Of a DNA stretch of 23,287 nucleotides, positions 1 to 21,888 are shown one piece after another; positions within the stretch are counted from its first letter, which is position 1; each line of letters begins with the position of its first letter. The notes under the pieces were generated by a model, which saw only the letters and a program-made list of their open reading frames with translations, was not told the DNA's origin and ran no database searches. A program made the position numbers and the translations under genes. Origin of the DNA: a virus; IMG/VR virus record IMGVR_UViG_3300023109_000147, positions 1 to 23,287 of that record; one strand, written 5' to 3'.

Positions 1-2144
1 AGTTTGAAGATAAATTTGGTACACCTGATGGTACTTACTATACAGAGTATGCAGTGCAGAACTATTTAAGGGAAGCAGGAAGTGCAACTATTGTTAGAGT
101 AGCAGGTGTAGATGGTTATAGTCAAGTGGCACCTATTGGTATTGCAATAACTGGTTCAGCTGGATTAAAATTAATTTCAACACTTCACTCAACACATAAT
201 GGTGATGAAGAAGTTGGATTTAGTGGATTTAGTATAGCTGATGGAAGTGCAACTGGTTCATTTGTTGTTAGTGGTAGTGGTATTGGAGAAATATCTTCTT
301 CTTTAGACTCAACTGATAATAATGATGTAACTGATGTATTTGGTTCTAACCCAAGAGGTTCGAAAGATGCATATACATATTCTTACTTTAAGAACGCATA
401 CGATGGAATCGTTGATAAGAATGAAGTACAGTCGGTTGTATTACCAACTCAAAATTTTTCTGTTGATGCACAAACGGCACACACACCATATGTAAAATCA
501 CAATTAATCTCCGGTGAAAGATATGATTTATTTCGTTTCCATACATTAGGACATGGTAATGGTGAAAATAAAAGATTTAAAGTTTCTATATCTGGTGTAA
601 AGGCAGCTGGTGAAGATGGTGGTACTGATTATTCAGTATTCTCATTAACTATCCGTTCTTATTCAGATACAGATAAAAGAAAAGTAGTATTAGAATCATT
701 TAATAATGTTAACTTAGACCCAGGTTCTGCAAATTATATTGCAAGAGTAATTGGTGATAGATATAGTACTATTGATTCAAATGGAAAGATTACCGAAAAT
801 GGTGATTGGATAAACAACTCTAAGTATATTAGAGTAGAAGTAGGAGAACAAGGTTCATATCCTGTATCTGCTGCACCATTTGGACATGGGGCTTATTCTA
901 ATCCAATTAAAGCAACTGTTGAAACTATCGTTCCTTCAGCTGTATTCCAAACTGGTTCAATAGCTAACACAACTGGTAACCCACAATTTTATGCTGGATT
1001 TGATTTTGAATCAATCGGTGTAAAAGATGATAACGCTAACTATATGAAACCTCTACCAGAAAGTGTAGGAGTTGGTTCAAACGTAGTATTTGGATTTGAT
1101 GGAAATGTAAGTGGAGTTGGTTTAACATTAGAAATGACTGGTTCTGATTCATCAGATATGATTAAGAGACAATTCTCTTTAGGTTTCCAAGGTGGATTTG
1201 ATGGAATGAGTCCTAATAGAGAAATCGCTTTAGGTTCTTCTATTTCAACTGGAAACTCACAAGGATTTGATTTAACTGATTCAACTAAGTTTGGTTCTAA
1301 GGCATACGCAAAGGCTGTAAATGCTATATCAAACGCTGATGAGTATGATATTAATATGGTAGTAACACCAGGTATTGTAAGAAGATTACACCCTGCAGTT
1401 ACAACTGATGTATTAGATATGGTTGAGGCTAGACAAGATTGTTTCTATATCTCTGATTTAACTGGGGTAAACGATACAATAACACAAGTAACTACTCAGG
1501 CTAATGCAATTGATTCAAACTACATAGGTTCTTACTACCCTTGGGTTAAGACAGTAGACTCTAATACAAATAAACTAGTTTCAGTACCACCATCAGTATT
1601 ACTACCAGCAGTATACGCAGCAAATGATGCCATATCGGCAGAATGGTTTGCTCCTGCAGGTCTTAATAGAGGAGGTATTATCGGAGCAGTTAGTGTATTG
1701 AATAGATTGACACACTCTGAAAGAGATACTTTATATGAAAACAAAGTAAATCCTATTGCTACTTTCCCTGGACAAGGTATCGTTGCATTTGGACAAAAGA
1801 CTTTACAAGATAAGGCTTCTGCATTAGATAGAATTAATGTAAGAAGATTATTAATCAATGTTAAAAAGTTTGTTGCTTCTACATCTAGATTCTTAGTATT
1901 TGAACAAAATACGGCTCAGACAAGAGGTAGATTCATTAATACTGTACAACCTTACTTAGAAGGAATTCAACAAAGACAAGGATTGTATGCATTTAAAGTA
2001 GTTATGGATGAATCTAACAACGGACCTGATGTGGTTGATAGAAACATACTTGCTGGACAGATATTTTTACAACCGGCTAAGACGGCTGAATTCATTGTAA
2101 TTGATTTCAACATCTTACCAACTGGAGCATCGTTCTCGGCATAA
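1..2144 (+). CDS. Contractile tail sheath protein (T4 gp18-like), 5' end missing
   Basis: Forms the contractile sheath around the tail tube and drives DNA injection. The frame is open from base 3 to the TAA at 2142-2144, giving 713 visible residues; the true start is left of the window. The GTG at 54 is an internal codon, since family-like sequence (FGTPDGTYYTEYA) continues upstream of it. The last 160 residues carry the typical sheath C-terminus: NPIATFPGQGIVAFGQKTL, then RINVRRLLINVKKFV, FLVFEQN and, near the end, PAKTAEFIVIDF. These match the conserved gp18 C-terminal pattern as I know it. The middle region (about residues 60-330) is Ser/Gly/Thr-rich and probably the variable surface insertion. 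Codon use is AT-rich like the rest. The next gene encodes the tube, the usual gp18-gp19 order. Confidence 0.95.
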   Translation, partial: FEDKFGTPDGTYYTEYAVQNYLREAGSATIVRVAGVDGYSQVAPIGIAITGSAGLKLISTLHSTHNGDEEVGFSGFSIADGSATGSFVVSGSGIGEISSSLDSTDNNDVTDVFGSNPRGSKDAYTYSYFKNAYDGIVDKNEVQSVVLPTQNFSVDAQTAHTPYVKSQLISGERYDLFRFHTLGHGNGENKRFKVSISGVKAAGEDGGTDYSVFSLTIRSYSDTDKRKVVLESFNNVNLDPGSANYIARVIGDRYSTIDSNGKITENGDWINNSKYIRVEVGEQGSYPVSAAPFGHGAYSNPIKATVETIVPSAVFQTGSIANTTGNPQFYAGFDFESIGVKDDNANYMKPLPESVGVGSNVVFGFDGNVSGVGLTLEMTGSDSSDMIKRQFSLGFQGGFDGMSPNREIALGSSISTGNSQGFDLTDSTKFGSKAYAKAVNAISNADEYDINMVVTPGIVRRLHPAVTTDVLDMVEARQDCFYISDLTGVNDTITQVTTQANAIDSNYIGSYYPWVKTVDSNTNKLVSVPPSVLLPAVYAANDAISAEWFAPAGLNRGGIIGAVSVLNRLTHSERDTLYENKVNPIATFPGQGIVAFGQKTLQDKASALDRINVRRLLINVKKFVASTSRFLVFEQNTAQTRGRFINTVQPYLEGIQQRQGLYAFKVVMDESNNGPDVVDRNILAGQIFLQPAKTAEFIVIDFNILPTGASFSA

Positions 2145-2196: not shown

Positions 2197-2685
2197 ATGG
2201 CAGAAGTATTAGAATTTAACGAAATGATGTTCACCAACTTCGAACCGAAGATGAAGAACAGGTATATAATGGAGATTGATGGAATTCAATCATACCTTAT
2301 AAAAGCTGCAAGTAGACCTGCGATAAACTTTGAGACGGTGAAATTAGACCATATCAATACTTATAGAAAACTACAAGGTAAAGGAGAGTGGCAAGACATT
2401 ACAATAACAATGTATGACCCAATCGTACCTTCAGGTGCTCAACAAGTAATGGAATGGGTAAGACTAGGATATGAATCTTTAACTGGTAGAAAAGGTTACG
2501 CCGATTTCTACAAAAAGGATATTGATTTCTATATGTTAGGACCTGTTGGAGATAAAATCGAACAATGGAAGTTAAAAGGTGCATTTATTCAAGCAGCTAA
2601 CTTTAATGATTTATCATTTGACTCTAATGACCCTGCTGATATCGAATTAACCCTTTCTTACGATTACGCAATATTAGAATTTTAA
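2197..2685 (+). CDS. Tail tube protein (T4 gp19-like)
   Basis: Structural subunit of the inner tail tube through which DNA passes. The protein has 162 residues, close to T4 gp19 size (about 163). Early residues read FEPKMKNRYIMEIDG, followed by a short beta-rich domain with WQDITITMYDP in the middle and an ending of ELTLSYDYAILEF. This is the usual opening (membrane of beta strands, YxMEIDG) and closing of gp19 family members. It follows the sheath gene directly, as in T4-like phages, but has its own L-class box upstream and a strong terminator downstream, so tube can be made as a separate transcript. This fits the large copy number needed. The ATG is preceded by an A-rich leader with only a weak SD-like GGA. 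Confidence 0.92.
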   Translation: MAEVLEFNEMMFTNFEPKMKNRYIMEIDGIQSYLIKAASRPAINFETVKLDHINTYRKLQGKGEWQDITITMYDPIVPSGAQQVMEWVRLGYESLTGRKGYADFYKKDIDFYMLGPVGDKIEQWKLKGAFIQAANFNDLSFDSNDPADIELTLSYDYAILEF

Positions 2686-2799: not shown

Positions 2800-3573
2800 A
2801 TGAGCGAAAATAAATTTGAATTCCCAACTGAGGTAATTGATTTACCATCTAAAGGTTTGGGATACCCAGAAGACCACCCCCTAAAAAAAGGAAATATTGA
2901 AATTAAGTATATGACTGCGAGAGAAGAAGATATTCTTGCATCACAATCTTTAATTAAAAAGGGTGTAGTTTTAGATAAGTTATTTGAATCAGTAGTTGTA
3001 GAGCCTGATTTAAATATAAACGATATTCTTATTGGAGATAAAAATGCTATTTTATTAGCAACTAGAGTATTAGGATATGGACCAGAATACAAAGTAGAGA
3101 TAACTGACCCATCTACATTAGAGGAACAATCAGTAACTATTGACTTATCTAAAGTAAAAACTAAAGATTTTAATGAGGAATTACTAAATTCTGAAAATCT
3201 TTATAAATTCAAATTACCAAAAAGTGGAACTGAATTAGAGTTTAAACTTTTAACACATGGTGATGAATTAGAAATTACAAAAGAAAACCAAGCATTGGCT
3301 AGATTGTATAAAGGAAAGGGAGATGCTACATTTGATGTAACCACTCGTTTGAAGTATATGATTCAATCAGTAGATGGTAATAACGATAGAGGAAATATTA
3401 CTAAGTGGGTACAAAACTCATTCTTAGCATTAGATACTAAAGCATTTAGAAAATACGTTAAAGAAATTAGTCCAGATATGGATTTAAAATTCAATTTCAC
3501 ATCGGAGTTGACGGGTGAGGAGGAGGCACTCGATATCCCCTTTGGGGCCGGGTTTTTTTACCCTGCCGAGTAA
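2800..3573 (+). CDS. gp26-like baseplate hub / tail assembly protein
   Basis: 257 residues with the hallmarks of the T4 gp26 baseplate family: IDLPSKGLGYP (18-28), MTAREEDILASQSLIKKG (about 38-55), GDKNAILLATRVLGYG (about 79-94), and a C-terminus ending PFGAGFFYPAE. In T4, gp26 belongs to the central baseplate hub assembly set. Here the gene lies between the tail tube and the tape measure, exactly where other tailed phages encode the tail-assembly chaperone whose longer form is made by ribosomal frameshifting. A second frame overlaps its 3' end through a T7 run at 3553-3559, so a 321-322 residue extended form is likely. The gene starts at an ATG behind AATAAAGGTTAAATT. I am confident of the family; the chaperone role is inference from position. 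Confidence 0.85.
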   Translation: MSENKFEFPTEVIDLPSKGLGYPEDHPLKKGNIEIKYMTAREEDILASQSLIKKGVVLDKLFESVVVEPDLNINDILIGDKNAILLATRVLGYGPEYKVEITDPSTLEEQSVTIDLSKVKTKDFNEELLNSENLYKFKLPKSGTELEFKLLTHGDELEITKENQALARLYKGKGDATFDVTTRLKYMIQSVDGNNDRGNITKWVQNSFLALDTKAFRKYVKEISPDMDLKFNFTSELTGEEEALDIPFGAGFFYPAE

Positions 3574-3766
3574 CTACTCAATTCAACTTCACAACCAGAT
3601 TTGGGAGTTGGTTAACTTTGGTAATGGATTTACTTGGAGAGATGTTTACTTCATGCCAATACAATGGAGAAAGTTCTATTTTAAGAAACTAGTAGAATTA
3701 AAGAAAAAAGAATCAGCTGAATACAAAAAGGCTGAAAGACAATCAAAAGTAAGGGTTAGAAAATAA
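3515..3766 (+). CDS. +1-frame extension of the gp26-like protein (tail assembly chaperone C-terminus)
   Basis: This open frame overlaps the end of the gp26-like gene by 59 nt. It carries a coherent 68-residue segment after the T7 run: IQLHNQIWELVNFGNG, then WRDVYFMPIQWRKFYFKKL and a charged lysine-rich helix. The frame has no ATG before the one coding the Met of MPIQW, which lies inside the conserved-looking part. Only a GTG at 3515 or a TTG at 3542 could start it independently. I therefore read it as the tail of a frameshift fusion of 321 (+1) or 322 (-2) residues, analogous to lambda G-T and Mu tail chaperones. The alternatives are independent initiation behind GAGGAGG, or a homopolymer miscount in the assembly: six Ts would give one continuous gene. 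The function of the segment is not known to me beyond the positional analogy. Confidence 0.7.
   Translation: MRRRHSISPLGPGFFTLPSNYSIQLHNQIWELVNFGNGFTWRDVYFMPIQWRKFYFKKLVELKKKESAEYKKAERQSKVRVRK
3546..3567 (+). promoter_or_regulatory. Probable programmed ribosomal frameshift site (T7 run inside a hairpin)
   Basis: The upstream frame reads GGG TTT TTT TAC; the downstream frame reads GGT TTT TTT ACC. A +1 slip (skipping T3559) or a -2 slip on the seven Ts joins the two frames. The run is the loop of an 8-bp stem with one mismatch, GGCCGGGT (3546-3553) against ACCCTGCC (3560-3567). This is unusually GC-rich for the window. Just upstream lie CCCCTTTGGGG (3537-3547) and GAGGAGGAGG (3517-3526), the strongest Shine-Dalgarno-like string I saw. 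Confidence 0.6.
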
Positions 3767-3824: not shown

Positions 3825-4028
3825 ATGTCAAAAAAGAAAATAAATGAACTAAATCTGGCTTCTCGATTCATAGGAGATTTCTTCGATGGACTTCAAAGGG
3901 GCACTGCTGATAGACTAATCAAGAAAGCAGCAGAAAGAGGAATACCAAAAGAGCTTACTGATAGAATGGAAAAAATCAACAAACAGAAAGCAGAAATCGA
4001 TGCACTAATGAAGAAATATTCTAAATAA
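3825..4028 (+). CDS. Small helical protein before the tape measure, unknown
   Basis: 67 residues, basic and probably all alpha-helical: SRFIGDFFDGLQRGTADRL in the first half, then a charged helix ending ALMKKYSK. No catalytic or metal-binding motif and no signal peptide are visible. It is the first gene after a strong terminator and an L-class box, 13 nt before the tape measure gene. A role in tail assembly or as a tape-measure partner is therefore plausible, but this is inference from position. I do not recognise a named family. The reading frame is convincing from its position, its codon use matching the neighbours and its tight spacing. Confidence 0.75.
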   Translation: MSKKKINELNLASRFIGDFFDGLQRGTADRLIKKAAERGIPKELTDRMEKINKQKAEIDALMKKYSK

Positions 4029-4041
4029 ATACGAATAAAAA

Positions 4042-6468
4042 ATGGCCAACGATAAAGATAGTCTTAAAATAAAACAAGATATTGCTACACTACAGCAAGC
4101 TATAGCACGTCAAGAAGCCAATACAAATGAACTTATTGAGATAAGAAATCAAAAAATACGTGCATACAAAAAAGAAATATTAGTTCTTGCTAGAGAACTT
4201 AAAAAAGTAAACCAACAATCACTTGATGCATATGGTAGTGCCGAACAATCGATAGGTTCTATATCTGGTATTTATAAAAATTTACAAGAGTCTCAACAAA
4301 AATCATTAAAATTACAACAGGATTCATTTGCAGAAGGTAGTCAACAAGAAAAATCTGCATTTAAAATAGCTTCTATTAATAGGCAAATAAGTGACTTATC
4401 TGCATCTGATGTCCAACAAAAGGCAGCATTACTTAGCTTAAGAAACGATGAGATGGCGGCTATATCTAAAGGATTGGATGCAAATTCTGCAGTTCTTAAA
4501 AATCTAGAAGAACAAAATAAAATAGCAATCAATAATTCAAATCTTTCAGAAGATGAGATAGAAGCTCTTAAAAAACAAGTAACTGCACAAGAAGCATTAA
4601 AATCTTCAATGCAAGCTATAACAGAAACTGCTCAAACATTTGTTAGTAGGCTCAGTAGTGCAGAAGGTATAACTGGGTTACTACTAATAGGTAGTGGAAA
4701 GTTTTTTGGTAAACTATCCGAAGTAAATGCAGAATTAGGACAAGTTGGTGAAGGTTTAAGTGGAGCAGCTGGTAGTGCAACTTTATTAAGTTTTGCATTT
4801 GGTGATTCTGCTACAACATTAAAAGCTTTATCTGCCGAAATGGGTGGATTGGAAGATGCTACATTTGGAGCACAACTTCAGACTAGTATAATGGCCAATA
4901 ATATGGGTATTACTGGTACTGAAGCAGCTACATTGAGTGGTTCTTTATCTAGATTAAATGATGGTTCATTAGAAACTGCTGGTAATCTTGCAGATGGTAC
5001 AAGAGAATTTGCTAGAATGAATAATATACCTGTTTCTCAATTAATGGGTGATGTTGCTGGTGCAACTGAAGAGTTTGCATTATTTGGAAAAGATGGTGGT
5101 AAAAATATATTACAAGCTGCAGGTTATGCTGCTAAGTTAGGTACTAACATGAGTACAATTAGTGGTATAGCAGATGGGTTACTTGATTTTGAATCATCTA
5201 TTACCAAAGAATTAGAATTGGGAGCAATGTTAGGTAAAAACATTAATCTTGATAAGGCCAGACAATTAGCAATGGAAGGTGACTTAGAGGGTATGATGAA
5301 AGAAACCCTAAGTTCACTTGGTGGGATTGATGCATTTAACAAAATGGATTACTTCCAAAAGAAAGCTACGGCAGATTTATTAGGTGTATCAGTTGCAGAA
5401 CTTGGAAAAATGGCAACCAACCAAGAAAAAGCACAAAAAGTATCTAAATTAATGAGTGGTGATTTCTCTAACATTGGGGAATCACTTAAGGCATTAGTTT
5501 CTCAAGCAGGCCCAAAACTTTTAGATTGGGGAGGTAAGTTTTTAACACTATCTGCCCAGGCAGGCCAATCTTGGACTGGTATAACCACTGTATTGGGTGG
5601 GATTCGTGAGAAATTCAAAGGACTTGGTGGTGGAGCAACTGATGCTGCTAGTTCTATCTCCGGCCCATTAACTAAGGCTGGTAAACCTGATATGAGGTTT
5701 AACTCCAATAAAGGTGGTGTAAGTGATATGTTAAAAGGAAAATCTAATCCAGCTGGCAAGGGTGGAATGATGGATTCGATGTCTAAAATAAATATGAATG
5801 CAGTTCTTAAAGGAGCAGCAGCAATGGTAATAGTAGCCGCATCAGTATTCGTATTTGGAAAAGCAGTACAAGAATTTATGAAGGTTAGTTGGAAAGCAGT
5901 CGGAATGGCTGTGGTATCAATGTTAGCTTTAGTTGGAGCAGTTTCTTTATTAGGTGCAATTATGATGAGTGGAGTTGGGGCAGTAGCAATATTAGCCGGA
6001 GCTGCAGCAATGTTAGTTATTGCATCATCTGTATTAGTATTAGGAATTGCACTTCAGCAAATAGGAACTGGATTTGAAATGTTAAGTAGTGGTATTGGAA
6101 CATTAATGCCACAATTGTTATCTATATCTACTGTGATTGGTGGATTGGTATTACTAATTCCAGCAATAGGATTATTATCATTATCATTAATGGGATTATC
6201 TGCATCGTTGGTAGCATTGGGTGTAGCTGGAATACTTGCATCACCTGGTTTACTCGCACTTTCAGTAGTTGGTACAGTAACTTCAGGATTAAATTCACTT
6301 ATGGGTGGTGGTGATAGTAAAAGTAGTAATGATGAAATACCAGCATGGGTGGAGGAACTAAAAACAACATTCAGAGAAACAAAAGATGTTTATATGGATG
6401 GTACAAAGGTTACATCTGTTATAAAGAGTAAAGTAAGTAAGGTAGGAAGTAATACATACGCAATATAA
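4042..6468 (+). CDS. Tail tape measure protein
   Basis: 808 residues. Sets tail length and is held inside the tube until injection. The first 200 residues are Gln/Lys/Glu-rich and look like long coiled coil (KIKQDIATLQQAIARQEAN and after). The middle (about 220-500) is Ala/Gly/Ser-rich. From about 585 to 755 there are several long hydrophobic stretches (for example AAAMVIVAASVFVFGKAVQ and LLIPAIGLLSLSLMGLSAS) typical of the membrane-active part of tape measures. Identification rests on size, this domain order and position between the tail chaperone unit and the baseplate genes; sequence identity within the family is generally low. At the usual rule of about 1.5 angstrom per residue the tail would be roughly 120 nm. 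Two TAA codons end the gene in tandem. Confidence 0.88.
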   Translation: MANDKDSLKIKQDIATLQQAIARQEANTNELIEIRNQKIRAYKKEILVLARELKKVNQQSLDAYGSAEQSIGSISGIYKNLQESQQKSLKLQQDSFAEGSQQEKSAFKIASINRQISDLSASDVQQKAALLSLRNDEMAAISKGLDANSAVLKNLEEQNKIAINNSNLSEDEIEALKKQVTAQEALKSSMQAITETAQTFVSRLSSAEGITGLLLIGSGKFFGKLSEVNAELGQVGEGLSGAAGSATLLSFAFGDSATTLKALSAEMGGLEDATFGAQLQTSIMANNMGITGTEAATLSGSLSRLNDGSLETAGNLADGTREFARMNNIPVSQLMGDVAGATEEFALFGKDGGKNILQAAGYAAKLGTNMSTISGIADGLLDFESSITKELELGAMLGKNINLDKARQLAMEGDLEGMMKETLSSLGGIDAFNKMDYFQKKATADLLGVSVAELGKMATNQEKAQKVSKLMSGDFSNIGESLKALVSQAGPKLLDWGGKFLTLSAQAGQSWTGITTVLGGIREKFKGLGGGATDAASSISGPLTKAGKPDMRFNSNKGGVSDMLKGKSNPAGKGGMMDSMSKINMNAVLKGAAAMVIVAASVFVFGKAVQEFMKVSWKAVGMAVVSMLALVGAVSLLGAIMMSGVGAVAILAGAAAMLVIASSVLVLGIALQQIGTGFEMLSSGIGTLMPQLLSISTVIGGLVLLIPAIGLLSLSLMGLSASLVALGVAGILASPGLLALSVVGTVTSGLNSLMGGGDSKSSNDEIPAWVEELKTTFRETKDVYMDGTKVTSVIKSKVSKVGSNTYAI

Positions 6469-11318: not shown

Positions 11319-12587
11319 ATGGTTGTAGTAGAATCTAATAAAGAGATAGAACATTTCATGCAAATGTGGGAGAATAATCCTTCCATAGTTGTACCGATAT
11401 GGTGTGATTTGGAAAAACATCCAATGAACAATAACCTTGCGTTCTTATTCGTAAGGGTGGAAAAAACTGACTTTATTCTCATATACAATCATATTGATGG
11501 GAAATCTCATCATTTAGACCTCTCAACCTCCACACAACCAAAATGGGTATGGAATAAGAAGGGTTTACTACAAACTGATACAAATATACAAAATATTTTT
11601 GATATATCCAATTATAACTTCTTTGAAGGTGGTAAACTTATACCCGATGAGGTACAAAATCAATCATTTATCTCACATTATACCCGAATGGGTGTAAGAG
11701 AAAACTTAGGAAAGATTGCACCTTTGATGAAATGGAATGAATATCTTAAATCATTTATTGATAAGTTTAATCTTCCTACTCCTTCTAAAAGTTGGATTGA
11801 TGATACGATGATTCCTCTTTTATCAGATATTGAACGATATGGTTGCCGCGTCGATGAGAAAAAATTTATTGATAGGTATCCCAATGCTACTAAACATCTA
11901 AAAGGTAATACCCTTTATACCGAATATAACCCATATACAGTCACTTCAAGACCCTCAAATAGGTTTGGTGGTATAAACTTTAGTGCTCTTAATAAAAAAG
12001 ATGGTACAAGAGAAGTATTTGTTCCCAAAGAAGGTCATATATTCCTTCAAATGGATTATGATGCATATCATCCCCGTATTATCGGTAAGTTGATTAAATA
12101 CGATTTGCCCAAAACATCGGTACACCAATGGTTGGCAGACCAATACGAAGTTGATTATAGTGAATCAAAAGGAATTACATTCCAATTACTATATGGTGGT
12201 ATACCTGAGGAGTTTGACTCTATTCCTTATTATAAGAAGGTTAGAGAGTACATTGAGGTGTTATGGAAGGAATCATCAAAGAAAGGGTACTTATCGACTC
12301 ACAATAGAGATATACCTCTTAGCTCGATAGAAGGTGTGAATCCACAAAAGGTGTTTAACTATCTACTTCAAGCAACTGAAACTGAATTGAATATGGGGAT
12401 AATGAAAAAGATGTTGGAGTTTATAAAGCAAACCGACATTGAGTTAACCTTATATACTTATGATTCGTTCTTATTTAGTTTTCCACTCGATACTCCAAAA
12501 GAACATGCACTTAAATTAAAAGAAATTGCAGAATCATTTGGATTTCCTATAAAGGTTGATTGGGGAACGGATTACTCAAAAATTTAA
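11319..12587 (+). CDS. Compact family A DNA polymerase
   Basis: 422 residues, far shorter than T7 polymerase (704) or Pol I. The palm is clear: TVTSRPSNRFGGINFS (207-222), motif A QMDYDAYHPRI (244-254, catalytic D246), motif B K284 with Y292-G293 seven residues later, and motif C Y381-D382-S383. The usual motif B Arg, four residues before the Lys, is Tyr280, and motif C reads YDS instead of HDE. Both metal-binding aspartates (D246, D382) are kept, so activity is possible. The first 130 residues look like a degenerate 3'-5' exonuclease domain: D30-L31-E32 could be its first motif, but I see no convincing second or third motif. The thumb region (about 150-205) is very short. It has its own host-type promoter, apart from the other replication genes at 18640-23287. 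The 5'-3' nuclease role is supplied by a separate FEN gene at 20842. Confidence 0.85.
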   Translation: MVVVESNKEIEHFMQMWENNPSIVVPIWCDLEKHPMNNNLAFLFVRVEKTDFILIYNHIDGKSHHLDLSTSTQPKWVWNKKGLLQTDTNIQNIFDISNYNFFEGGKLIPDEVQNQSFISHYTRMGVRENLGKIAPLMKWNEYLKSFIDKFNLPTPSKSWIDDTMIPLLSDIERYGCRVDEKKFIDRYPNATKHLKGNTLYTEYNPYTVTSRPSNRFGGINFSALNKKDGTREVFVPKEGHIFLQMDYDAYHPRIIGKLIKYDLPKTSVHQWLADQYEVDYSESKGITFQLLYGGIPEEFDSIPYYKKVREYIEVLWKESSKKGYLSTHNRDIPLSSIEGVNPQKVFNYLLQATETELNMGIMKKMLEFIKQTDIELTLYTYDSFLFSFPLDTPKEHALKLKEIAESFGFPIKVDWGTDYSKI

Positions 12588-16877: not shown

Positions 16878-18410
16878 ATGAAAATAGTTATAGCGGGTGG
16901 AGGAACTGCTGGTTGGTTATCAGCATTATTCCTAGCCAAACAAAATTTACACAGAGATATTCCAGCTTACGATGTTACTCTTATAGAGAGTGATGATATT
17001 CCAATTATAGGAGCTGGTGAAGGTTCAACTGGAGTACTACAAAAAGTACTTCTATCTACTTTAAGAGAATTGGAAGGATTTGGAGAACAAGAGTTTTTTG
17101 AAAATTGCAATACAACATTTAAATTAGGAATCGATTGTATTGATTGGAATGGGGTAGGTGATAGATTCTTTGCATCCTTATCAGGAACACAAACTTCAGA
17201 ATGGCCATTGGATAGAGATTTTACGATTTGTTCAAAATACGGAAACTCTGCAGAATCTAGTCCTAACAAATATCTTTGGGAAAAAAATCTAACACCATTT
17301 TTAAAAACTCAAAATAACGATAGCTACGAAACTGGATATGCATATCACTTTGATGCACATAAAGTGGGTGAGTGGTTTAAGAAGATTGCATTGGAAAATG
17401 GAATCAAATTACAAAAAGGTACAATAACCGATACTAAGTTAAATTCAAAAAATGGTGAATTGGATAAAGTAATACTTTCCGATGGAACTGAAATAGAATC
17501 TGATTTTTGGATTGATTGTACTGGATTCAATAGAGTACTGAGTAAATCAGTTGGTTCAGAATGGGTTTCATATTCAGAATATCTACCAATCAACTCAGCA
17601 TTAGTTTATTCACACCAATATGAAGAAGGTGAAGAAATATCACCTGCAACAACTGCATGGGCAATGCCAAATGGTTGGATGTGGCAAATTCCAACTCAAG
17701 AAAGATTAGGATGTGGATATTGTTATTCTGATAAGTTTGTATCTGAGGAACAAGCTCTGAAAGAACTACAAGAAGTTACTGGTAGAAAGATAACACCTCT
17801 TAGAACTATTAAGTTCGATAGTGGTAGGTTAAAAGAAGTTTGGAAAAAGAATGTACTTTCAATAGGATTATCATCTTCCTTCTTAGAACCATTAGAAGCA
17901 ACATCGATACATTCATCTATAATTCAGTTAGTACAATTAACACAACATCACTTATCGCCTTACAAAAAGGATATGATGAGAGAATCAAACATCAAAGCAA
18001 ATAATGAACACTTTAATATGATGTTAGATGAATTTAGAGGTTTGATTCAAATGCACTATATTACAAAAAGAAATGATACTCCATTTTGGAAATATGTACA
18101 TAATGATTTAAAGAGAGACCCATTAGTTGAAAGAATTTTAGAAATATGTAAATATAGAGTTCCAAACGCAAATGATTTTCCGCATTATAATGGTTCAGCT
18201 GGTTGGGGTGTATTCAATTGGATATTGGCTGGTAATGATTTAATCAGTAAAGATGTATTAGATAAATCCCTAAATACTCATAATTTTGAAAAATCATCTG
18301 AACAGGTTTATAAACATATGGTAAAACAATACATATTTGATTCTAAACAACACTTCCCACATACTGAATTTATCAATTGGGCAAAAGATTTTTCAAAAAA
18401 CTCAAAATAA
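16878..18410 (+). CDS. Flavin-dependent tryptophan-halogenase-family enzyme
   Basis: 510 residues, the usual length for PrnA/RebH-type halogenases. The FAD-binding GGGTAGW is at 7-13 and a further GAGEGS at 45-50. Lys82 in TTFKLG corresponds to the catalytic Lys79 of RebH. The halogenase signature WMWQIP is at 266-271. FLEPLEATS (334-342) matches the RebH segment FVEPLESTG: Glu339 corresponds to catalytic Glu357, while Ser358 and Gly360 become Ala340 and Ser342. The family uses FADH2, oxygen and halide to chlorinate, brominate or iodinate aromatic rings; FADH2 must come from a host flavin reductase, as none is encoded here. Cyanophages carry relatives, one of which (VirX1 of Syn10) is a characterised iodinase. 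It lies directly after two small paralogues and a Trp-rich fibre-like gene. Family call is secure; substrate and halide are unknown. Confidence 0.93.
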   Translation: MKIVIAGGGTAGWLSALFLAKQNLHRDIPAYDVTLIESDDIPIIGAGEGSTGVLQKVLLSTLRELEGFGEQEFFENCNTTFKLGIDCIDWNGVGDRFFASLSGTQTSEWPLDRDFTICSKYGNSAESSPNKYLWEKNLTPFLKTQNNDSYETGYAYHFDAHKVGEWFKKIALENGIKLQKGTITDTKLNSKNGELDKVILSDGTEIESDFWIDCTGFNRVLSKSVGSEWVSYSEYLPINSALVYSHQYEEGEEISPATTAWAMPNGWMWQIPTQERLGCGYCYSDKFVSEEQALKELQEVTGRKITPLRTIKFDSGRLKEVWKKNVLSIGLSSSFLEPLEATSIHSSIIQLVQLTQHHLSPYKKDMMRESNIKANNEHFNMMLDEFRGLIQMHYITKRNDTPFWKYVHNDLKRDPLVERILEICKYRVPNANDFPHYNGSAGWGVFNWILAGNDLISKDVLDKSLNTHNFEKSSEQVYKHMVKQYIFDSKQHFPHTEFINWAKDFSKNSK

Positions 18411-18639: not shown

Positions 18640-19458
18640 ATGGCACTTGATTTAAATGCAATCAGAGGTAGACTGAACAAACTACAAAACACTTCAAATC
18701 GTAAAGATAATTTGTGGAAACCAACACCTGGTAAACACCAAGTAAGAATTGTTCCTTACAAATTTTCTCCTGAAAATCCTTTCATTGAGTTATTCTTTCA
18801 CTACAACATCAACAACAAAACGTATTTGTCTCCTTCTTCTTTTGGAAGACCAGACCCTATTGTTGAGTTTGCTGATAAGTTGAAGAGAATGGGTGATAAA
18901 GAAGATTGGAAAGCAGCTAAGAAGATGGAACCGAAATTAAGAACTTTTGTACCTGTAATCGTAAAAGGTGAGGAATCAGAAGGTGTAAGATTTTGGGGAT
19001 TCGGAAAAACTGTTTACCAAGAATTGTTAGGATATATCGCAGACCCTGATTATGGTGATATTACAGATGTTGACAATGGTAGAGATATTACTATTGAGTA
19101 TACATCCGCAGACGATGCAGGAACTTCATATCCTGTAACTACTGTTCGTGTAAAACCAAATCAGACTCCATTGTCTGCAGATGAAACTGCTAAACAAAAC
19201 TTTGTAGAAAGTCAAACTAATATTACTGACATATATTCTGAATTAACTTATGATGAATTAAAATCAGTATTAGAAGGATGGTTAAATCCTACATCAGATG
19301 AAGGTGAAGGTAGTGTGAGTCAACAAACTCTATCAACCCCATCTACACCTAAAACTGAAACTGCTACTGCAACAGTACCAACATCTCAACCAACGGTTGA
19401 AGATAAGAAAAAATTGGATGATGTTGCATCTGCATTTGATGACTTGTTTAACGGATAA
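18640..19458 (+). CDS. Single-stranded DNA-binding protein (T4 gp32-like)
   Basis: 272 residues. Coats ssDNA during replication and recombination. The N-terminal basic arm (about 1-25, RGRLNKLQN) is followed by KHQVRIVPYKF and PFIELFFHYNI of the gp32 core, WGFGKTVYQELLGYI, then a Ser/Thr/Pro linker (about 220-255) and an acidic tail ending DDVASAFDDLFNG, the part that in gp32 and bacterial SSBs recruits partner proteins. The protein has no cysteine at all: the zinc-ribbon stretch seen in T4 gp32 (Cys77, Cys87, Cys90) is replaced by YLSPSSFGRPDPIVE. It is the first gene of the replication module, behind a 229-base leader with two host-type promoters, a hairpin and an L-class box. UvsX follows after 10 bases. 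Confidence 0.9.
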   Translation: MALDLNAIRGRLNKLQNTSNRKDNLWKPTPGKHQVRIVPYKFSPENPFIELFFHYNINNKTYLSPSSFGRPDPIVEFADKLKRMGDKEDWKAAKKMEPKLRTFVPVIVKGEESEGVRFWGFGKTVYQELLGYIADPDYGDITDVDNGRDITIEYTSADDAGTSYPVTTVRVKPNQTPLSADETAKQNFVESQTNITDIYSELTYDELKSVLEGWLNPTSDEGEGSVSQQTLSTPSTPKTETATATVPTSQPTVEDKKKLDDVASAFDDLFNG

Positions 19459-19468
19459 TATATAATAA

Positions 19469-20587
19469 ATGGCAAAAAAAGAAATTGATTTAGCATCAGT
19501 CCTAGCGTCTGAACTAAATAAAACAAACAAAGACCAGAAGGTTGCCTTCTTTTTAGGAGAAGATGATGCACCCACAAATGTGGATGGCTGGATATCAACC
19601 GGATGTGCAATGTTAGATGTTGCAATTTCGAATCGCCCATATGGTGGACTTCCTGTTGGAAGAATTACCGAAGTTACTGGTTTAGAACAAAGTGGAAAAT
19701 CATTAGTATCTGCTCACCTCCTTGCTGAAACACAAAAGCAAGGTGGTGTCGCAGTTCTTATTGATACTGAAACTGCAGTAAGTAGAGAATTCTTAGAAGC
19801 AATTGGTGTAGATGTAGGAAAACTACTTTATGTATCTGCGGATTCGGTTGAACAAATTTTCGAATTTACTGAAACAATCATTGAAAAGGTTCGAGAAACC
19901 TCAAATGATAAATTAGTAACAATAGTAGTAGATTCAGTAGCAGCTGCATCAACAACAAACGAGTTGGCATCTGACTATAAGAAAGATGGATATGCAACTG
20001 ACAAAGCTATTATTATCTCAAAAGCGATGAGAAAGATTACCAATATGATTGGTAGACAAAAAGTAACCTTAGTATTCACTAATCAATTAAGACAGAAGAT
20101 GAATGCTATGTTTGGTGACCCTTGGACTACGAGTGGTGGTAAGGCCCTTGCGTTTCACGCATCGGTTAGACTCCGTTTGAAAAATATGGGACAAATCAAA
20201 CAAAAGGTAAATGGTAAAGATAAGACCATTGGTATGAAAGTAAGATGTCAGGTTATTAAAAACCGAATGGGCCCACCATTAAGAGCAGCAGATTTTGAAA
20301 TATTTTTTGACAGAGGAATCGATAATTATGGTTCTTGGTTAAGTGTAATGAAAGAATATAAGTTGTTAAAACAGGCAGGTGCATGGTATACTTATGTTGA
20401 TACGGATACTGGCGAAGAAATTAAATTCCAATCTAAGGACTTTATAGATTTAATGGAAGATAGAGATGAAATAAAAGACCAAATTTATAAAAAGATTTGT
20501 GATGAAACTATCTTACAATATAAATCAGATTCAAAAGACATCGAGGCACACAAACTAGATACTGCAGGTGCAGAGATAGTTGATTAA
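19469..20587 (+). CDS. uvsX: RecA/UvsX-type recombinase
   Basis: 372 residues. ATP-dependent strand-exchange protein for recombination-driven replication and repair. Typical start of the core: STGCAMLDVAIS, PYGGLPVGRITEV. Walker A GLEQSGKS is at 71-78, Walker B LVTIVVDS at 149-156, and the loop 2 region FTNQLRQKM at 203-211. The C-terminus is shorter and different from bacterial RecA, as in phage UvsX, though the Walker A segment is RecA-like. Works with the SSB encoded just upstream (gp32-UvsX partnership known in T4). No separate promoter is visible in the 10-base gap, so it is co-transcribed with the SSB. The ATG follows an A-rich leader. The symbol is by analogy with T4. Confidence 0.92.
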   Translation: MAKKEIDLASVLASELNKTNKDQKVAFFLGEDDAPTNVDGWISTGCAMLDVAISNRPYGGLPVGRITEVTGLEQSGKSLVSAHLLAETQKQGGVAVLIDTETAVSREFLEAIGVDVGKLLYVSADSVEQIFEFTETIIEKVRETSNDKLVTIVVDSVAAASTTNELASDYKKDGYATDKAIIISKAMRKITNMIGRQKVTLVFTNQLRQKMNAMFGDPWTTSGGKALAFHASVRLRLKNMGQIKQKVNGKDKTIGMKVRCQVIKNRMGPPLRAADFEIFFDRGIDNYGSWLSVMKEYKLLKQAGAWYTYVDTDTGEEIKFQSKDFIDLMEDRDEIKDQIYKKICDETILQYKSDSKDIEAHKLDTAGAEIVD

Positions 20588-20602
20588 ATTAAATAAAAAG
20601 TT

Positions 20603-20842
20603 ATGAGCAAATTAAAAGAAATGTTAAAAACATCTGCTTCGGCAGATAAGGCGAAAGCCCTTCTTACATTGGAGTTGTTAGAGAAGCATCCCGCAGGAAT
20701 CGGAGACCATTCAACCAAAGATTTCTATGAGAACGCAGAATCAGCACTTCAAATGTTAGTTGATGCAGATGATAGATTAGAGACAATCGAAAAGTATTTT
20801 GGTGAATCTAATGATATTAACTACACAACTACAACTACATAA
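20603..20842 (+). CDS. Small protein between recombinase and FEN nuclease, unknown
   Basis: 79 residues. Likely all helical: KLKEMLKTSASADKAKALL, then LLEKHPAGIGDHST and an acidic helix with ALQMLVDADDRLETIEKYF, ending in a run of six Thr. No known motif. The leader AATAAAAAGTT before the ATG is identical to that of the fibre-like gene at 15776. Its stop overlaps the next start as TAATG, implying translational coupling to the nuclease. A replication accessory role is inferred from position only. Confidence 0.8.
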   Translation: MSKLKEMLKTSASADKAKALLTLELLEKHPAGIGDHSTKDFYENAESALQMLVDADDRLETIEKYFGESNDINYTTTTT

Positions 20843-21888
20843 TGAAAGGACTCTATAAAAATATTCTAAACGAGGTTGAATCTGAAAGAGAATCAAATCA
20901 ATCTCGTGAAAGAAACAGTAGAGTCATGATAATAGATGGACTAAACACTTTCATCAGGTCATGGACAGTTAATCCTACAATGAATGAGGATGGTGACCAT
21001 ACTGGTGGAGTTGTTGGTTCTCTAAAATCTATTGGATATCAAATTAGAGAATTCAATCCAACTAGATGTATTGTGACATTTGATGGAAAGGGTGGTTCTA
21101 AATCTCGTAAAAAGGTATATGAAGGCTATAAGGCAGGGAGAGAGAATCGTAAGTTTAGAGTCAACCGACAATATATGGAGTTCTTAGATGAAGAAGAAGA
21201 ACAATTATCCATGAGACAACAATTCGTTTGGCTAAATGATGTGTTAGATTACTTACCTGTACAGACAATGATTTATGATGGTATTGAGGCAGATGATACT
21301 ATTGCGTATCTAACTAAACATACTCAACAAGATTTAGATGGTGAAGTTGTAATAGTTTCAACGGATAAAGATTTTCTTCAATTAGTTTCAGATAAAGTTA
21401 GTGTTTTTTCTCCTACTAAAAAGAAAATGTACAATAGACAAGTTGTATTTGATGAGTTTGGTATATGGCCTGAAAATCTTCTATTATATAGAACATTAGA
21501 TGGTGATAAATCAGATAACATACCAGGTATTCGAGGATGTGGTGTTAAAACCGTTTTAAAGAGGTTTCCTGAACTTTCTGAAGATAGACTTATAACTCAT
21601 GAAGAGTTCTTTAAAATGTGCGAGGAGAAACAAGGTAAAATCAAATTATATGATGATATCTTAAAAGCAAAAGACCAACTTCTTATGAATAAGAGGTTAA
21701 TGGAATTGGATGAACCTCATATCCCAACTAATCAAAAGTTAAAAATTTTAGAAAGATTCAATGTAGATGATATCCAATTTAATAAATTAGATTTTCTAAA
21801 AGTTGGACAGAAATATAAGATTCTTCAAAATTGGAGAGACATTAATGATTGGTTACATTCAACTTTTCATAATATTATTACAAAATAA
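20842..21888 (+). CDS. 5'-3' exonuclease / RNase H (FEN family, T4 RNase H-like)
   Basis: 348 residues. Removes RNA primers and flaps on the lagging strand. Metal-site acidic residues are visible in order: D32 in IIDGLN, D81 in FDGKGGSKSRK with the following basic arch VYEGYKAGR, E149-A-D-D152, D175 and D177 in STDKDFLQL, and GDKSDNIPGIRGCGVKT (221-237), the helix-3-turn-helix DNA-binding motif. About 28 residues precede the usual N-terminus of the domain; I keep this start because TAATG couples it to the preceding gene. It supplies the 5' nuclease missing from the short family A polymerase at 11319. Confidence 0.93.
   Translation: MKGLYKNILNEVESERESNQSRERNSRVMIIDGLNTFIRSWTVNPTMNEDGDHTGGVVGSLKSIGYQIREFNPTRCIVTFDGKGGSKSRKKVYEGYKAGRENRKFRVNRQYMEFLDEEEEQLSMRQQFVWLNDVLDYLPVQTMIYDGIEADDTIAYLTKHTQQDLDGEVVIVSTDKDFLQLVSDKVSVFSPTKKKMYNRQVVFDEFGIWPENLLLYRTLDGDKSDNIPGIRGCGVKTVLKRFPELSEDRLITHEEFFKMCEEKQGKIKLYDDILKAKDQLLMNKRLMELDEPHIPTNQKLKILERFNVDDIQFNKLDFLKVGQKYKILQNWRDINDWLHSTFHNIITK

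Follow-up and report, generated by a model that had tools for sequence, protein, structure and literature searches.

A conserved candidate +1 frameshift site in a T4 gp26-type phage gene for a probable tail assembly chaperone

The tail module and its two reading frames

The locus studied here raises the question of how a phage expresses a coding frame that overlaps the 3' end of a tail gene in another register. The window, meaning the whole stretch of DNA that was analysed, is a virus record of 23,287 bases (IMG/VR IMGVR_UViG_3300023109_000147) and represents a fragment. According to the ORF list and a Pfam search, it carries a tail module with the following genes:

54..2144, plus strand: tail sheath protein (PF04984, E 5.3e-13; also PF17482)
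2197..2685, plus strand: tail tube protein gp19 (PF06841, E 1.1e-7)
2800..3573, plus strand: 0-frame ORF of 257 aa, probable short form of the tail assembly chaperone (TAC-N), T4 gp26 family (PF12322, phrog_150, fold)
4042..6468, plus strand: probable tape measure protein, 808 aa, judged from position and size

The location between the tail tube and tape measure genes, which formed part of the original prediction, was confirmed by gp19 upstream and the tape-measure-sized ORF downstream, and in the Flavobacterium phage immuto an ORF annotated as tail tape measure protein sits downstream of the same chaperone gene. The window has an ORF of 67 aa (3825-4025) without a Pfam match after the chaperone extension and ahead of the tape measure gene; homologues of this ORF occur at the equivalent place in 13 of 106 clusters of related loci. 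Elsewhere in the window, a tryptophan halogenase-like gene was found (16878-18410; PF04820, E 3.9e-97), and the structural genes are followed by a gp32-like single-strand DNA binding protein, RecA and a 5'-3' exonuclease (18640-21888). An ORF of 422 aa (11319-12587) resembles the C-terminal portion of DNA polymerase family A only weakly (PF00476, E 5.9e-6, under the curated cut-off); it may be half of a split polymerase.

The ORF 2800-3573 matches PF12322 (T4_baseplate, the T4 gp26 family) with E 3.3e-8 and 33.9 bits against a curated cut-off of 24.5, as the one such match within the 23-kb record, itself a fragment, and also matches phrog_150 (baseplate hub). The core and the extension were modelled with AlphaFold as separate chains. 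The core model (pLDDT 88) retrieved T4-like baseplate hub proteins from BFVD, including the baseplate hub subunit of SP-15 (E 8.5e-19, TM 0.81-0.85). A comparison with the PDB, by sequence and by fold, gave no significant relative, the HK97 chaperone appearing only at E 3.3, and a plasmid search gave no match.

The 3' end of the ORF reads GGG TTT TTT TAC CCT GCC GAG TAA, and a second frame, offset by +1 (or -2), is open from 3512 to 3766. In agreement with the predicted lack of an ATG ahead of the conserved part of this frame, only GTG (3515, -38) and TTG (3542, -11) are present there. If TTTT is read as one Phe step, both frames are joined to a long form of 321 residues (TAC-NC). The elements of the junction are as follows:

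3522..3526, plus strand: Shine-Dalgarno-like GGAGG, 26 nt upstream of the T run, within the string GAGGAGGAGG
3537..3547, plus strand: small hairpin CCCC-TTT-GGGG upstream of the site, in the TACCC subset only
3552..3552, plus strand: base immediately 5' of the T run; no T in the +1 group (0/106 clusters against 58.3 expected)
3553..3563, plus strand: candidate frameshift site TTTTTTTACCC, 0-frame TTT TTT TAC CC, with +1 re-pairing of the Phe tRNA predicted on either TTT, then ACC CTG
3560..3766, plus strand: C-terminal extension, 68 aa and stop, predicted three-helix domain that would be read only after a +1 shift
3571..3573, plus strand: 0-frame stop TAA, codon 7 counting from the site start

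We consider it very probable that the region 2800-3766 is a tail assembly chaperone gene whose long form is produced by +1 programmed ribosomal frameshifting. Most ribosomes would end at TAA 3571 and yield the short form, and in a minority the Phe tRNA that decodes UUU of UUU_UUU_UAC in the P site would move one base forward and pair again with UUU (in relatives with UUU or UUC), after which the +1 frame would be read to 3766. The product of the shift would be the long form with its helical C-terminal domain of 68 aa. If both forms behave as lambda gpG/gpGT do, they would cover the tape measure protein and bring in subunits of the tail tube.

Conservation of the junction and of the extension

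A first scan of IMG/VR with the extension as query yielded 80 loci, and further scans with the core led to 339 loci with a core match. Since TTTTTTTACCCT and the extension occur at a constant offset in 80/80 loci of the first scan, and the motif TTT[TC]TTT(GG|AC)CC is present in frame near the core end in 318 of the 339 loci surveyed, chance is excluded as an explanation. Most of the loci outside these 318 are covered by variants at the site position, namely TTTTTTTATCC, TTCTTTTACCC, TTTCTATGGCC, TTTTTTTTCCC, CTTTTTTGGCC and TTTCTATTCCC. The 0-frame stop follows 6 or 8 codons past the site start in 307 of the 318 loci. A position could be assigned to the junction in 335 loci, which form 110 clusters at 80% core identity and 28 at 60%, and all of these loci keep the junction, the C-terminal extension and the +1 frame relation. 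On this evidence, a programmed frameshift (+1 or -2) in the gp26-like gene, as originally predicted, is the best explanation, and the overlap and the T run, named at that time as something to be compared in related phages, are conserved, with T-run variants that keep the frame relation.

The relatives are a large set of phages, most of them marine or freshwater. Isolates with the junction include phages of Flavobacterium (immuto), Microcystis (Mel-JY01), Bacillus (SP-15), Listeria (LIS04), Streptococcus (GXN1) and Rhodothermus (RM378). In the GenBank annotation, the extension is missing in immuto and SP-15 and appears as a separate hypothetical ORF in Mel-JY01.

Within the site, TTT occupies codon 1 in 103 of 106 clusters and codon 2 in 96, with CTT at codon 2 in nine others, compared with a use of TTT for Phe of 68% in these loci. 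The naive log10 P of this excess is about -18 for codon 1 and about -17 for codon 2, values that are not true probabilities, as the clusters are related. The CC at site positions +9 and +10 does not vary. Immediately ahead of the T run, C is found in 67 and G in 32 of the 106 clusters, both in large excess, although the probabilities calculated for this position serve only as a guide because the clusters share ancestry. The absence of T at this position does not result from an amino acid constraint in the extension frame, since the position is non-coding in that frame; a base other than T at 3552 would prevent a T_TTT_TTT heptamer for -1 shifting or a longer run. One related record of 252 kb contains three further matches to the motif, none of them at a frameshift junction, and the motif alone is therefore no predictor of shifting.

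The reading frame of the extension has a pN/pS of 0.175, as opposed to 1.4 and 1.7 in the other two frames (93 independent pairs), which points to strong purifying selection on the encoded protein. The conserved residues of the extension start right at the site. Its model (pLDDT 81) contains helices at residues 8-22, 28-32 and 36-68, and only weak matches were obtained in BFVD (E 0.3 or worse), some of them to proteins named tape measure chaperone.

Direction of the shift and rival explanations

In the re-pairing audit, the P-site tRNA was placed on codon 1 or codon 2 of each locus, and shifts of +1, -2 and tandem -1 were considered. The simplest single rule is +1, because at least one +1 slip is possible in 335/335 loci, -2 re-pairing is impossible in seven of the 335 (TTTCTAT in five, TTCTTTT and TTCTTTC), and tandem -1 re-pairing is possible in none (0/335). 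The slip codon is not fixed, as TTTCTAT requires codon 1 and both TTCTTTT and TTCTTTC require codon 2; the slipping codon is thus apparently not set by the sequence alone, and no single codon fits all loci. Wherever the T run is broken, a UUU codon that permits +1 re-pairing is still present.

With regard to stimulation, GGAGG occurs in 64 of 110 clusters as opposed to 0.4% of background windows, with its start mostly at -31, and an excess of G in the third base was observed at codons -11 and -10. The string GAGGAGGAGG, to which attention had been drawn in the original prediction, accordingly contains a conserved element, but no role was found for it: GGAGG lies too far upstream for prfB-type or other known frameshift stimulators. 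Pairing of GGAGG with a downstream CCT was considered and was not supported by the cross-locus test. For the small upstream hairpin, pairing within loci is greater than pairing across loci in the 28 AC-type clusters (z about -6.8), an excess that the 74 GG-type clusters do not show. The GC-rich imperfect hairpin with the T run as its loop, also part of the original prediction, had to be abandoned, as it is not conserved and its GGG is replaced by TCG, AAC, AGC, GAC and others in the relatives. RNAalifold detected no RNA structure common to all loci (mean z -1.37 for -45 to +15, no consensus), and with GGAGG too distant and no universal RNA structure, no recognised +1 stimulator was found at the site.

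The original prediction gave the direction as +1 or -2; this frame relation was borne out, and the relatives favour +1. A -2 ribosomal shift at the same site, the direction known from Mu, would differ by one extra Phe at the junction (GFFFTLPSN) and lead to an identical frame, and by the audit rule re-pairing at codon 2 is allowed in 328 of 335 loci. We nevertheless regard it as unlikely, given that the seven loci listed above permit +1 re-pairing but no -2, and that an upstream T, which would extend the run for backward slips, is never present. Considerably less probable still is transcriptional slippage on T7, in which RNA polymerase would drop one U or add two and so generate a minority of in-frame mRNAs. 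The T7 run with a small GC hairpin directly upstream, found in the window and in the AC-type relatives, would suit such a process, but the run is broken or shortened in 16 of 110 clusters (TTTCTTT, TTTCTAT, TTCTTTT, CTTTTTT, TTCTTTC, TTTTTTC, TTTTTTA) with the extension still in the same frame, and the GG-type majority shows no upstream hairpin signal.

The extension could also be a small gene in its own right, starting at GTG 3515 or TTG 3542, or be translated by reinitiation after TAA 3571. The window alone could not settle the question of the start, because GTG at -38 and TTG at -11 remain in its extension frame. The relatives make an own start highly improbable: a stop in the extension frame lies at most one codon from the T run in 26 of 109 clusters and at most three codons from it in 43, 41 of 109 have no ATG, GTG or TTG between the upstream stop and extension codon 12, and the conserved residues begin at the site, while the candidate starts are not conserved. 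An independent start in relatives had been named as a point to check, and the outcome speaks for the frameshift, as many relatives lack any other expression route for the extension. As for an error of homopolymer sequencing or assembly, or a decayed gene, in what is truly one continuous ORF, homopolymers are error prone, but the probability of this explanation is close to negligible. The T7 is not a sequencing error, since three other IMG/VR assemblies carry an identical gene region, which also answers the earlier question about the length of the T run; the same frame relation recurs in hundreds of contigs and in isolate genomes, and the selection on the extension likewise argues against decay.

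Known frameshift systems and the gp26/gp51 family

The best reading of the locus is that +1 frameshifting would represent the lambda G-T principle in a new form within the T4 gp26/gp51 family. With lambda G-T (Xu et al., 2004; PMC5009743), the gene shares a pair of overlapping ORFs located between the tail tube and tape measure genes, an extension without its own start, a conserved slippery site near the 3' end, and a short and a long form. However, lambda shifts by -1 and the window gene probably by +1, and the window core belongs to the T4 gp26 family. A review from 2016 describes G-T frameshifting as a conserved feature of long-tailed phages other than T4; members with -1, -2 and +1 shifts are all known among tail assembly chaperones, most of them -1 (PMC5009743). 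The original prediction held a frameshifted gp26-type chaperone to be unusual. It is unusual no longer to the same degree, as tail assembly chaperones of T4-like phages were identified by Vladimirov et al. in 2022, some of them encoded as a short gene and a separate long fusion gene (cited in PMC10885494), and poly-T -1 sites are described for some T4-like chaperone genes (PMC12846349). The literature searched, which included few subscription papers, did not yield any account of a +1 site conserved in genes of the gp26 type.

Among the known +1 sites, those of influenza PA-X (UUU_CGN), the HF1-group haloviruses (proposed at TTT-CGC; PMC7230728) and prfB (CUU_U) share UUU or CUU in the P site and forward re-pairing with the phage group described here; Streptococcus phage GXN1 carries the exact sequence TTT CGT, and CTT T is found in immuto. 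They differ in that the A-site codon in the phage group is usually UGG or UAC. In addition, prfB has a stop in the A site and a Shine-Dalgarno sequence 3 nt upstream, whereas the phage group has neither, its GGAGG being 26 nt upstream. The -2 shift of phage Mu brings about the same frame change as the probable +1 shift of the phage group, but -2 re-pairing is impossible in seven relatives of the window gene.

Homologous genes with another frame relation were found as well. In cyanophages (L090, L341-L343), phiN3 (L344), OLIVR5 (L346), Vibrio PVA8 (L348), a PA5oct-like phage (L349) and Atu_ph07 (L087), gp26-like genes end with nnT TTT TTC or nnT TTT TTT, a -1 heptamer, and the extension is open in the -1 frame. 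In existing annotations these extensions either form a separate gp51-like ORF or are missing, and some have an early ATG, so that a separate start is possible for some of them. The cyanophage-type site (T_TTT_TTC) and the window site share a homologous core and extension and FF at the junction, at nearly the same position, but the former uses the -1 frame and has a T ahead of TTT TTC, which the +1 group never has. Homology between the extensions of the -1 and +1 groups was detected with hhalign (95%, E 3.5e-8), and the -1 extensions as a set resemble the C-terminus of T4 gp51 (76%, E 2.3e-5). A profile comparison of the window extension alone with the T4 gp51 C-terminus gave no significant match, and its link to gp51 is indirect, because it runs via the -1 group. 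In the core tree, 30 of the +1 clusters group together (97/86), and the deep branches are long.

In T4, both gp26 and gp51 match PF12322, as does the window core, and gp51 consists of the core and a short C-terminal part of about 48 further residues. T4 differs in having two separate genes on opposite strands, where the window has one gene with a probable frameshift. Vladimirov and colleagues reportedly assigned gp26 as the short form and gp51 as the long form, and the PF12322 matches of both fit this assignment.

Bacteria and their phages have few natural +1 frameshift sites, and a site kept over 110 clusters would allow its rules to be read from nature, i.e., which codons slip, which bases precede them and what never occurs. 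It would also fill a gap in the picture of tail assembly, in which T4 had been named the exception to chaperone frameshifting, as homologous genes would reach the same end by -1, by +1 or by two genes. In the relatives with a broken run, one peptide could tell which codon slips. A more far-reaching proposal, which we put forward tentatively and with slightly more doubt than confidence, is that UUU_YUU_U(GG/AC)CC may be an unrecognised and very widespread class of bacterial +1 sites, in which the conserved non-U before the U run would block the -1 shift of the homologous phages, so that one base would help to set the direction; one chaperone family would then have moved between -1 shift, +1 shift and gene duplication, and GGAGG 26 nt upstream might be a new kind of stimulator.

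Another arrangement may exist in L347 and L345 (Ackermannviridae, Vibrio phage K441), where the gp26-like gene has no TTT TTT site and is followed by a -1-frame ORF with a similar extension.
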